Positions 1 to 9,880 of a DNA stretch of 34,456 bases are shown here, piece after piece. Origin of the DNA: Anaerolineales bacterium. Lineage in GTDB: Bacteria; Chloroflexota; Anaerolineae; E26-bin7. The notes beneath the pieces were generated by a model that made no database searches, had not been told where the DNA came from, and was given only the letters and a program-made list of their open reading frames with translations. How positions within the stretch are numbered: the first letter of the stretch is position 1; the number at the start of each line of letters is the position of its first letter. The translations under genes and the position numbers were made by a program. The stretch is from assembly GCA_004377365.1 (NCBI GenBank), contig SOHZ01000673.1, positions 1 through 34,456 of the forward strand, given 5' to 3'.

Positions 1-1438
1 CCTTGGCCTGGTCAACCATCAGGCGGTTAATGCCCATCTCCCACTCCCAGCCCAGAACGTGGAGCTCTTTCTGCTCCATTGCTTTACACTCGGCCAGGCA
101 CTCGTTGATCTCGTCAATGGTCACCGGGGCATCCACCGCGCCGACGTGGATCACGGCGCTGCCTTTCTTGCCGTGCAGGTGCTGAGTTCCGGCCAGGGGT
201 TGCGCGCCATAGAGGTCCAAGATGAATTTGAGGTACTCAAAGATGAGCATCTGCTGGGGGCGCTTCTGGCCGCCAAAGGTGACCCCTTGCCAGACCTGCC
301 GCTCGTACTGGCCCAGGTTGAGAATCTCGAAGGGGCGGCAATCAGGAATGTCCATCAGCCGCTTGCGAGTGGTGTGAATGGCGTAGCGGCTCATATCGCA
401 GCCGATCCAGCGTCGCCCCAGTTTTTCAGCCACGGCCAAGGAGGTGCCGGAGCCGCAGAAGAAGTCGGTGACGAGATCGCCTTCATTGGATGAAACCGTT
501 ATGATTCTTTCCAAAAGGGCCTCCGGTTTCTGCGTGTCGAAGTCCAAATGCTCATAGCCTCGCGGGTGGACCTTTTTCACATCCCACACATCGCGCAGTG
601 AAACCCCTTGCGACTCTTCGTCTGTTTCTCGTTTGACCCACGTTCCATCCTTGGTTTGCACAGTCGTAAGACGCTTCCCGCCATAGTCACTGAGGGTTCT
701 CTCGCTGGCCTCTTCCCATAAGGTATTGAATACGTGCGAATTATCGGTATTTTTGGTGTAAAACAGAATGGTATCATGCATTCTTTGAAAGTTCTTCGCT
801 CTTGTCGGCCAGCGACGATAAAACCAAACGATCTCGTTGCGAAAGCAGGATTGCCCGAAGATGTCATCTAACATTAGTCGAATCTGAGATCCGACATGCC
901 AATCAATATGCACATAGAGGCTTCCGCTATCTGACAGTAGGTCACGGACAAGCCAAAGCCGCTCGTACATCATGCTGAGATATGAATTTAGTCCTTGGCC
1001 CCAGGTATCCCTGTATGCTTTCTCCTCAATGATCGACTGCTCTTTGGTCACTTTCACGTCACCGTCACCAATCTGCGACGTGAATGAGAAATCTGCCCCT
1101 GTCGCAAACGGTGGATCGATGCAGATCAGGTCAATCTTGCCGGCAAAGTGCTCCAGCAAGGAGCCCATCACGTACAAGTTGTCGCCCCAGATAAGCTTGT
1201 TACGCCAGCCGTCGCCCTCGCCAGCCATCTGCTCTTCTTCGGCCTGCCAGTAGTCAAAGAGGGTACCTACGTGGCCGGCAAGTTCTTCTTTGTGCCGCTC
1301 GCGGGTAGCGCGGGTCTCATTGACCCCCTCGATGACCTGGAAGGGCAGGTTGACGCGGCGGGGCGGCACCAGGTTGCCCTCTTCGTCGTATTTGCCGGGC
1401 CAGACAAGTTCGGTGCGGGTGATTTCGATTTTGGGCAT
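1..1438 (-). CDS. Beta-class site-specific DNA methyltransferase (N6-adenine or N4-cytosine), partial
   Basis: The frame is open for 479 codons from ATG at 1438 and runs off the left edge, so the C-terminus is missing. The catalytic motif IV, DPPF, is at residues 108-111. The S-adenosylmethionine motif I, FCGSGT, is at 327-332. The order IV before I marks the beta class, which includes type III Mod and many orphan methylases. The protein should transfer a methyl group from SAM to adenine-N6 or cytosine-N4 in DNA; the target site cannot be read. AGGAGGAG lies upstream of the start. The gene starts 15 nt after the DUF5615 toxin gene and is probably the last or near-last gene of the radC-helicase-NTPase run. 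Its first 47 codons are duplicated at 2145-2285. No restriction endonuclease is visible in the window. The family call is firm; modification partner and specificity are unknown. Confidence 0.9.
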   Translation of the reverse strand, partial: MPKIEITRTELVWPGKYDEEGNLVPPRRVNLPFQVIEGVNETRATRERHKEELAGHVGTLFDYWQAEEEQMAGEGDGWRNKLIWGDNLYVMGSLLEHFAGKIDLICIDPPFATGADFSFTSQIGDGDVKVTKEQSIIEEKAYRDTWGQGLNSYLSMMYERLWLVRDLLSDSGSLYVHIDWHVGSQIRLMLDDIFGQSCFRNEIVWFYRRWPTRAKNFQRMHDTILFYTKNTDNSHVFNTLWEEASERTLSDYGGKRLTTVQTKDGTWVKRETDEESQGVSLRDVWDVKKVHPRGYEHLDFDTQKPEALLERIITVSSNEGDLVTDFFCGSGTSLAVAEKLGRRWIGCDMSRYAIHTTRKRLMDIPDCRPFEILNLGQYERQVWQGVTFGGQKRPQQMLIFEYLKFILDLYGAQPLAGTQHLHGKKGSAVIHVGAVDAPVTIDEINECLAECKAMEQKELHVLGWEWEMGINRLMVDQAK

Positions 1439-1453
1439 CGTGGACTACTCCTC

Positions 1454-1846
1454 CTATTCTACTGCATTCAGGCTCTCCTCGGAGGTCGCCGGGGGGCGGC
1501 GAATGCGCGTTCTGCTCTCGTCGGCCACCGCCAGACAGCCAGCCAAGGGCCTCAGTCCGTGCTCTGCCAGAACGCGTCGGATAACACGCGCGACTGCTTC
1601 TCGGCCTTTGCCGCGAGGTCTGATAAGCAAAATGCCGGGATGAGTGCCTGGTACAAACCGACGCACATCTGAGAAATCAAGGTCCAGCGTGATGAAGAAG
1701 CGCCCGGTATCGCAGACGTGTTGCCACACCACTGGATCCTTAGCCCCGGACAGACCTTGCTCGGTTACCCGCTGCGTCACGTGGCCGGCATCACGCACCA
1801 ACTGGGCGTGCGATTGCCCCAGGTTCTCGTCGAGTTTGACCTTCAC
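1454..1846 (-). CDS. DUF5615 PIN-like toxin of a DUF433/DUF5615 TA pair
   Basis: A 130-residue protein that starts KVKLDENLG and carries TLDLDFSD and GILLIRPRG, as in DUF5615 (Mut7-C/PIN-like) proteins. The family is predicted to be a ribonuclease toxin with acidic residues in the N-terminal DEN and central DxDF motifs. I chose the GTG at 1846 because it overlaps the stop of the DUF433 gene as GTGA, the usual translational coupling of such pairs. A longer frame reaching back to 2029 exists but would overlap nearly all of the antitoxin. The methyltransferase begins 15 nt downstream. The pair lies inside a duplication of the methyltransferase start. Nuclease activity is inferred from family, not shown. 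Confidence 0.8.
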
Positions 1847-2088
1847 GCTGGCACAGTTCCCAGTGGAATGAGCTCTTCCTCTCTGGCCAACACAGCAGCG
1901 TAGGCGATGGCAACCTGCACGTCCTCTATGACGAGGGGCGGATACTCGGCCACGATCTCTTCCGGCGACAGCCCTTCGGCCAGGTTGTCGAGGATTACCG
2001 TGACCATAATGCGTGTGCCCTGGATGCAAGGCTTGCCGTGGCAGATGTCCGGGTTCACGCTGATCCTATCCAGTAGCCTGTTGTTCAT
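1843..2088 (-). CDS. DUF433 domain antitoxin
   Basis: An 81-residue protein with the DUF433 signature: [20 protein letters not shown], then an [19 protein letters not shown] helix-turn-helix-like segment. DUF433 proteins are small winged-helix-like DNA-binding antitoxins that usually precede a DUF5615 or PIN toxin, which is the arrangement here (GTGA overlap with 1846). AAGGAG sits 7 nt before the ATG, so this start is well supported. It should neutralise the DUF5615 protein and may autoregulate the pair. The 44 nt upstream separate it from the truncated methyltransferase start at 2133-2285. Confidence 0.85.
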
Positions 2089-2132
2089 GTCTCAACTCCT
2101 TGTCTAGAGTCACAGGTCGACGCGCTCATTTC

Positions 2133-2285
2133 TCACTCGCGCTCCTCGCGGGTGGCACGGGTCTCGTTGACCCGCTCGATGACCTGGAAGGGCAGATTGA
2201 CGCGGCGGGGCGGCACCAGGTTGCCATCGTCGTCGTATTTACCGGGCCAGACAAGTTCGGTGCGGGTGATTTCGATTTTGGGCAT
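2133..2285 (-). pseudogene. Truncated duplicate of the methyltransferase start
   Basis: A 50-codon open frame beginning MPKIEITRTELVWPGKYD, the same N-terminus as the methyltransferase at 1-1438, then ending in TGA. By eye about 8 of 141 aligned bases differ between 2145-2285 and 1298-1438, with no gaps. It keeps its own ribosome binding site (GAGGAG) and ATG, so a 50-residue peptide could be made, but both catalytic motifs are absent. It lies 36 nt after the membrane NTPase gene and 44 nt before the DUF433 gene. It is best read as the former start of the methyltransferase, left behind when the TA pair entered. Confidence 0.85.
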
Positions 2286-2321
2286 GGTTCAACTCCTCAA
2301 GGCTATGCTGATTTACGACCC

Positions 2322-9351: not shown

Positions 9352-9436
9352 AGGACACCGTCATGCCGGATGAACAGTCGCCTGCGCGTCTGGGTACACG
9401 CCGTAGTGGTCGGTCAAGAGGAAGGCTGAGACCATA

Positions 9437-9473
9437 AGAGCCGCTTCTCCTGCTTGACACAGAAAGCGGCTCT
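9437..9473. other. 10-bp inverted repeat in the radC leader
   Basis: AGAGCCGCTT at 9437-9446 pairs perfectly with AAGCGGCTCT at 9464-9473 across a 17-nt loop. There is no T-tract on either strand, so it is not an ordinary intrinsic terminator. On the minus strand it falls in the 5' leader of radC. On the plus strand its loop contains the -35 box of the predicted small RNA. Confidence 0.75.
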
Positions 9474-9483
9474 CTGGTATCAT
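9454..9483 (+). promoter_or_regulatory. Sigma70-like promoter for a plus-strand small RNA
   Basis: TTGACA at 9454-9459 and TATCAT at 9478-9483 with an 18-bp spacer. No protein gene lies downstream on the plus strand. A hairpin with a T5 tract ends about 85 nt later, which supports a short noncoding transcript. Confidence 0.55.
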
Positions 9484-9489
9484 CTCAGA

Positions 9490-9572
9490 GCCTGGCCTTC
9501 CTGAGCGAAGCAGGAAGGGGGCATTGTCATCATGAAGGGCCACCGCGCTCGGAACGCGGTCGGTCCCTTTTT
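9490..9572 (+). ncRNA. Predicted small RNA antisense to the radC leader
   Basis: About 83 nt, bounded by the promoter at 9454-9483 and the terminator at 9537-9572. It contains a perfect 8-bp hairpin (CCTTCCTG at 9496-9503 with CAGGAAGG at 9511-9518, 7-nt loop). No known RNA family is recognised. It lies wholly inside the predicted 5' leader of the radC operon on the opposite strand, so it could regulate that operon by base pairing. Transcription is a prediction from promoter and terminator only. Confidence 0.45.
9537..9572 (+). terminator. Intrinsic terminator of the predicted small RNA
   Basis: GGGCCACCGCG at 9537-9547 folds with CGCGGTCGGTCCC at 9555-9567 (6-bp perfect inner stem, outer stem with small bulges, loop CTCGGAA). 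T5 follows at 9568-9572 and then further pyrimidines. On the minus strand no T-tract follows, so it should not stop radC transcription. Confidence 0.6.
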
Positions 9573-9880
9573 CCTTTCCCCTCAGGCCCCATCGCTCTTG
9601 AGGGGGTAGGTTACGGTCTGGCTGATTTAATTATATCATGCATTGTGAGAAAATGCAATAGGAAACAAGTAATAAGGGATAGGGTGCAGACTGCCGTGCG
9701 CGCCCCAAAAGGCGCTTGAAAGGTCCTGGTTTAGCCGCGTCGCTGCCTCAAGCAGGCCCAAAACGGGCGTTTCTTGCCTTATATATTTTAGCACACTTCT
9801 GTTAGGGTAGAGTTAGAGAAAGGTTAGAATTTTGTTTGAAATTCGCAGGGAGACCACCCTCTGAACGGCTGCGATAACAT
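9573..9880. other. Noncoding stretch upstream of the radC operon
   Basis: It holds the radC promoter (9630-9658), a small GCGCCCCAAAAGGCGC hairpin around 9699-9714 and AT-rich sequence near 9780-9840. No supported gene is seen on either strand. The gyrB scar begins at 9881. Confidence 0.6.
9630..9658 (-). promoter_or_regulatory. Strong promoter of the radC-helicase-NTPase operon
   Basis: On the minus strand TTGCAT (complement of 9653-9658), a 17-bp spacer and a perfect TATAAT (complement of 9630-9635). The start point would be near 9623, giving a leader of about 270 nt before radC. Confidence 0.7.

Follow-up and report, generated by a model that had tools for sequence, protein, structure and literature searches.

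A candidate expanded type III restriction-modification operon with RadC, a helicase-nuclease and a variable cargo slot in an Anaerolineales genome

We analysed a 34,456-nucleotide (nt) stretch of DNA from an Anaerolineales bacterium (SOHZ01000673.1; hereafter the window), which is the entire contig C104 of genome G000 (5.9 Mb, 676 contigs) and carries an operon of radC, a helicase-nuclease gene (hel; product HEL), two P-loop nucleoside triphosphatase (NTPase) genes, a putative toxin-antitoxin (TA) pair and a DNA methyltransferase gene (mod). With a probability of about 0.72, we read this operon as a type III restriction-modification (R-M) system in expanded, cargo-bearing form. Its anatomy is a four-gene core, radC-hel-mod-res, with fixed order, joint presence or absence, broad horizontal spread and intact catalytic motifs, in which one variable slot separates hel from mod and a second separates mod from res; from these features we infer a defence function of the unit. 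An initial annotation, made from the letters of the window alone, had proposed a defence operon here; its observation was confirmed and its interpretation was half right.

Results

The mod gene continues into res on a second contig

The left end of C104 falls within mod and overlaps the end of contig C73 exactly over 55 nt, so that the operon goes on into res on C73. When the two contigs are joined, mod forms a single unbroken open reading frame (ORF) of 600-plus residues, and its stop is overlapped by 1 nt by the start of res, whose product has 918 residues; in five other loci the mod-res gap is 2 nt. The initial annotation missed res because the window is a complete contig ending within mod.

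The window methyltransferase matched PF01555 (2e-48) and PADLOC MTase_III (8e-108) and has the motif DPPF ahead of FCGSGT (beta order); for the mod homologue of locus L044, the closest solved structures were the type III Mod 6k0w and EcoP15I 4zcf. RES and its relatives belong to ResIII and conserve Walker A (GSGKT or GAGKT), DEAH (DEGH in one row), GRGLRL and a C-terminal PD...ETK, and the best PDB profile match of RES was EcoP15I Res (4zcf_C, E 1.7e-5), spanning both the helicase and the nuclease motifs. Three features by which a type III R-M system is recognised were found together, namely a Mod of the beta-class N6-adenine type III lineage, a Res combining a superfamily 2 (SF2) helicase with a C-terminal PD-(D/E)XK nuclease, and mod adjoining res in one operon. 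The operon backbone is therefore type III Mod-Res, and the fourth core gene, which the window lacks, is res of type III.

The core is conserved and spreads horizontally

Class genomes, phylum genomes, GTDB contigs and viral contigs were searched, and one HEL clade was found at 13 loci including the window (with L161 as an extra fragment), the HELs of the other 12 being 57-77% identical. These core loci lie in Chloroflexota (the window, L033, L036 and L043), in bins assigned to Planctomycetota (L040), Deltaproteobacteria (L041, L042 and L046), Acidobacteria (L044) and WOR-3 (L045), and on viral contigs (L158, L159 and L160); since the loci come chiefly from metagenome bins, the phylum labels are insecure. 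On the viral contigs, a single-sequence HEL search gave no match and an alignment-based search gave four HEL loci, the fragment L161 among them.

Wherever contigs extend far enough, the gene order is radC-hel-(cargo)-mod-(cargo)-res, and in a tree that took in nine of the core loci their HELs formed one clade (support 99). HEL (≥60%) and RES (≥50%) occurred in the same three of 298 class genomes (G000, G118 and G146; chance 2e-7), and HEL and RES distances were correlated (r = 0.88 over 28 pairs). The single operon and defence set claimed by the initial annotation thus stood in part: radC, hel and mod are supported as one conserved, horizontally spread unit of probable defence character, and the NTPases fall outside it.

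If a RadC-HEL pair for repair or defence and a conventional type III R-M system were independent and adjacent only through defence-island clustering, this would explain why the slot sits exactly between both halves, why HEL is found alone or with other partners, and why more distant mod-res pairs are common without HEL (33 other class genomes had only distant RES, ≤40%, without such HEL). HEL stands alone in a third group (Ktedonobacteria-like genomes, most of 8.9-13.7 Mb), and in a sister HEL clade, from Nitrosomonas, Vibrio and Enterococcus plasmids and some Chloroflexota, a different mod and a gene for a TnsA-like SF2 protein come after it, and RadC is missing. We nevertheless consider two independent systems unlikely, given the joint occurrence, single HEL clade and correlated distances described above, the identical order across phyla in every locus showing both halves, and the distance of only 12 or 14 nt from hel to mod in the cargo-free loci L033 and L044; in the sister branch, too, hel is followed by mod and res genes. 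A RES search of plasmids gave only two matches (31-32% identical).

In L160 (3230-9027 and 9261-22435), the full unit (radC-hel-TmtA-HTH-mod-res, HTH denoting a helix-turn-helix gene) immediately follows the terminase, portal, scaffold and major head genes of a phage, and L159 is a complete copy on a contig with an integrase. This context, together with the presence of the unit across unrelated bins, suggests that it is carried by prophages.

RadC and the helicase-nuclease

The RadC protein of the operon matched PF04002 (3.4e-39) and, above cut-off, NF000642, has an intact HNHPDG...PS..D motif and shares 27% identity with the genome's other RadC. Of the 12 homologous loci in which the region before hel is visible, 11 have radC immediately upstream of hel, its stop overlapping the hel start in each of them, and L158 has no radC there. 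An apparent lack of RadC in L033 was ruled out by tblastn, the gene being hidden under an overlapping spurious ORF.

HEL matched PF00580 (9e-64), PF12705 (6e-23), TIGR00372 cas4 (5e-12) and the GajB models. The Fe-S Cas4/AddB-like domain that the initial annotation had assigned to it was borne out by four cysteines (C716, C938, C941 and C947), which are invariant in 8 homologues, as are the PD-(D/E)XK residues. The best matches in a fold search were UvrD, PcrA, AddAB and AdnAB, obtained with a weak AlphaFold model (predicted local distance difference test, pLDDT, 61) and taken as support only.

The cargo slots and the NTPase pair

Between hel and mod, the window holds the two NTPase genes (NTPs and NTPL), a mod stub and the DUF433/DUF5615 pair. 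Elsewhere this slot holds TmtA (Tiamat family) or a relative in L041, L045, L159 and L160 (in L160 with a HigA-like HTH gene), the TmtA model scoring 1523 bits in L041 and 228 bits in L045 and the L159 and L160 genes being homologous; a DUF4062-HATPase protein in L043; an AlbA/Schlafen protein in L046, at a contig end; DUF3800 in L036; and in L040 a 760-nt stretch containing what looks, by eye, like a Y1-transposase relic. It is empty in L033 and L044. In the second slot, between mod and res, L036 carries a SoFic-like Fic protein and L040 a VapBC-like pair.

The initial annotation had made the NTPases part of the mechanism, with the whole set working as one system, the NTPases as sensors and the helicase-nuclease as the enzyme that degrades unmodified DNA. 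Both genes are co-directional and tightly packed in the window operon, and both products have Walker A motifs and transmembrane (TM) segments. The co-occurrence search that the initial annotation had proposed speaks against such a system, which we regard as very improbable and, by gene neighbourhood, as largely refuted: none of the 12 Chloroflexota loci with the closest NTPL homologues adjoins HEL, MOD or RES of this clade, an NTPs homologue lies beside NTPL in at least 6 of the 12, and these NTPases were found in no core locus other than the window, the slot being filled with unrelated genes or empty. The NTPases were rejected as core genes; since NTPL homologues in these 12 loci often neighbour NTPs and never HEL, MOD or RES, the pair, which stands alone beside unrelated genes in Chloroflexota, is a module of its own, caught in the slot. 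NTPs gave no match in the PDB.

Residues ~200-225 of NTPL (window 4004-4060) form low-complexity GVA/GVF repeats in a membrane segment, with similar repeats in homologues L138 and L139. The source genome (L038, G000:C442, 3112-18677) and a congener (L039, G001:C612, 6651-15078) also contain AAA/STAND-like NTPase genes in tandem arrays of 4-8.

Discussion

In the mechanism that we propose, Mod would put N6-methyladenine on one strand of host sites, and Mod-Res, on unmodified invading DNA, would translocate or slide and then cut, with recognition and cutting modelled on EcoP15I, a Res1Mod2 complex (PMC4005696). The UvrD-type helicase-nuclease may load onto the cut ends and resect or degrade the fragments in the manner of RecB or AdnA, an AddAB/AdnAB-like end processing suggested by its predicted fold. 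RadC (HhH + JAMM) might recognise or trim branched or single-stranded ends alongside HEL, since radC and hel are translationally coupled, and this agrees with a review of polyvalent proteins in which RadC domains were suggested to process nucleic acids (PMC5512222). The slot genes, here the two membrane STAND-like NTPases and the DUF433/DUF5615 pair, would serve as back-up effectors that can be exchanged; they would probably act abortively and may respond to failed restriction, much as PrrC stands guard over a type I system. PrrC in EcoPrrI is the model of a guardian embedded in an R-M operon (PMC12707154, PMC3710099). Recognition and cutting by Mod-Res, end processing by HEL and interchangeable NTPase cargo would replace the sensing and degradation first envisaged.

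A core devoted chiefly to DNA repair or epigenetic functions rather than to defence, as the repair-like families of RadC, UvrD and RecB-like nucleases might suggest, is hardly probable, because a full-length Res with an intact PD...ETK nuclease, the patchy spread, the phage or provirus carriage and the known defence families among the cargo all fit restriction better.

Several points weigh against reading the operon as an expanded type III R-M system. The clade counts only 13 loci, mainly from metagenome bins, and the link from C104 to res on C73 depends on an overlap of k-mer size. The AlphaFold model of RES (5 sequences) reached a pLDDT of 38 and was not used, and that of HEL was weak (pLDDT 61). 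HEL need not act solely with this Mod-Res, because its homologues occur alone or, as on plasmids, with other mod and res genes. RadC may be dispensable, because L158 has none.

It is possible, and we put this forward tentatively, that the unit is a defence system of its own, RadC and a RecB-like helicase-nuclease acting on type III-made ends and the slot serving as a landing site for the exchange of second-line effectors between prophages and bacteria; a pair of membrane STAND-like NTPases from Chloroflexota, so far undescribed, would be among these effectors. No earlier description of the unit (RadC with type III R-M, UvrD or anti-phage operons) was found in the open-licence literature. RadC is a nearly universal bacterial protein that has remained unexplained for decades and whose name has been called misleading; its coupling to a helicase-nuclease in a restriction operon would give its role a concrete, testable setting. 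The operon also shows that an embedded slot for second-line genes can occur in type III systems, as it does in type I. Tiamat-like, Fic, Schlafen-like, toxin-antitoxin and membrane NTPase genes have all entered this slot, so scanning it across genomes could be a direct route to new effectors.

Comparison with known systems

Type III systems are characterised by an asymmetric 5-6 bp site, methylation of adenine on one strand and cleavage that needs two head-to-head sites. The operon shares with EcoP15I the DPPF...FCGSGT (beta) order in Mod, the SF2 helicase with PD...ETK in Res, and mod directly followed by res; unlike EcoP15I, it constantly includes a UvrD/PD-(D/E)XK helicase-nuclease and nearly always RadC, and it carries variable cargo in the hel-mod or the mod-res interval. 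As in EcoPrrI, a type I R-M system with the embedded anticodon nuclease PrrC, a non-R-M gene lies inside an R-M operon, and this position of the extra genes was seen here; the backbone, however, is type III, many unrelated cargo genes use a single slot, and the guardian role is assigned by analogy.

The initial annotation had found no match to BREX, DISARM, Zorya, Gabija or classical R-M. This proved correct for BREX, DISARM and Gabija and did not hold for the backbone, which is recognisable as type III R-M through res on C73. Gabija likewise has a UvrD-family helicase, whereas HEL has its own nuclease and is accompanied by a methyltransferase and Res, and no GajA (OLD-family ATPase with TOPRIM) was found among the operon genes. 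ARMADA and DISARM also combine several helicases and a methyltransferase in a single operon (PMC12458937), unlike which the operon proteins include no YprA-like/DUF1998 helicase or PglX-like methyltransferase. Neither brxC nor pglZ of BREX was found among the operon proteins, and TmtA of Tiamat was not found in the window.

A plasmid set of HEL, site-specific methyltransferase and SF2/TnsA-like protein resembles the operon in that a homologous HEL (35-38%) precedes mod and a Res-type helicase-nuclease, and differs in lacking RadC, in its TnsA-like nuclease, in its separate HEL clade and in that no cargo slot was seen. This three-gene set (L054, L055 and L056) occurs on conjugative and other plasmids of Nitrosomonas, Vibrio and Enterococcus, apparently has no system name, and is annotated merely as helicase, methyltransferase and TnsA-N/DEAD protein.

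Layout of the window and neighbouring genes

All genes listed in the initial annotation, the TA pair included, are present, and radC through mod lie on the minus strand (Table 1). The three short overlaps that it described, each of 4 nt, are two ATGA (radC/hel and NTPase/NTPase) and one GTGA (DUF433/DUF5615), and the linking gaps, which it had put at 69 nt or less, measure 69, 36, 44 and 15 nt. Its methyltransferase stub between the NTPase and DUF433 genes is a 144-nt copy, 94% identical to 1283-1441 at the start of mod. The promoter that it had called strong is plausible, with a perfect extended -10 and a poor -35, and was not among the sites listed by a consensus scan of the window. Promoter-like and terminator-like sites in that scan showed no excess over shuffled sequence, so the scan neither supports nor refutes internal promoters.

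Table 1 Features of the operon and its surroundings (window positions unless a locus is given)
Feature	Position	Strand	Description
radC	8668-9351	-	RadC family, HhH + JAMM; core gene 1
hel	5795-8671	-	UvrD/PcrA-type superfamily 1 helicase fused to PD-(D/E)XK_1 nuclease; core gene 2
NTPs	4640-5725	-	AAA_16/nSTAND1-like P-loop NTPase, one C-terminal TM helix; slot cargo
NTPL	2322-4643	-	AAA_22-like P-loop NTPase, several N-terminal TM helices; slot cargo
mod stub	2133-2285	-	duplicated first ~48 codons of mod
DUF433 putative antitoxin	1843-2088	-	PF04255 1.4e-23
DUF5615 putative PIN-like toxin	1454-1846	-	PF18480 3e-13; GTG start overlaps DUF433 stop
mod	1-1438, open at contig edge	-	type III-like DNA N6-adenine methyltransferase (DPPF ... 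FCGSGT); core gene 3
mod end and res on contig C73	L071:1-489 (mod), L071:489-3245 (res)		res, core gene 4; 55-nt contig overlap
putative promoter	9630-9658	-	extended -10 TGATATAAT 9638-9630; weak -35 TTGCAT 9658-9653
PIN + partner	10010-10673	-	TA-like pair
two TA-like pairs	11389-12182 and 12197-12705	-	no Pfam match
DUF5615/DUF433	13596-14364	-	TA-like pair
PIN/Phd	16571-17289	-	TA-like pair

Several further TA-like pairs lie within 7 kb of window sequence (10010-17289, minus strand). Short copies of methyltransferase 5' ends, from mod and from a DUF1156 methylase, occur beside TA-like pairs at 2133-2288, 11081-11248 and 12801-12959 (minus strand), and in the ORF at 10865-11485 a DUF1156 stub is fused to a PIN-like C-terminus. 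The genome has five DUF1156 matches, every one in a short ORF of 87-206 residues.

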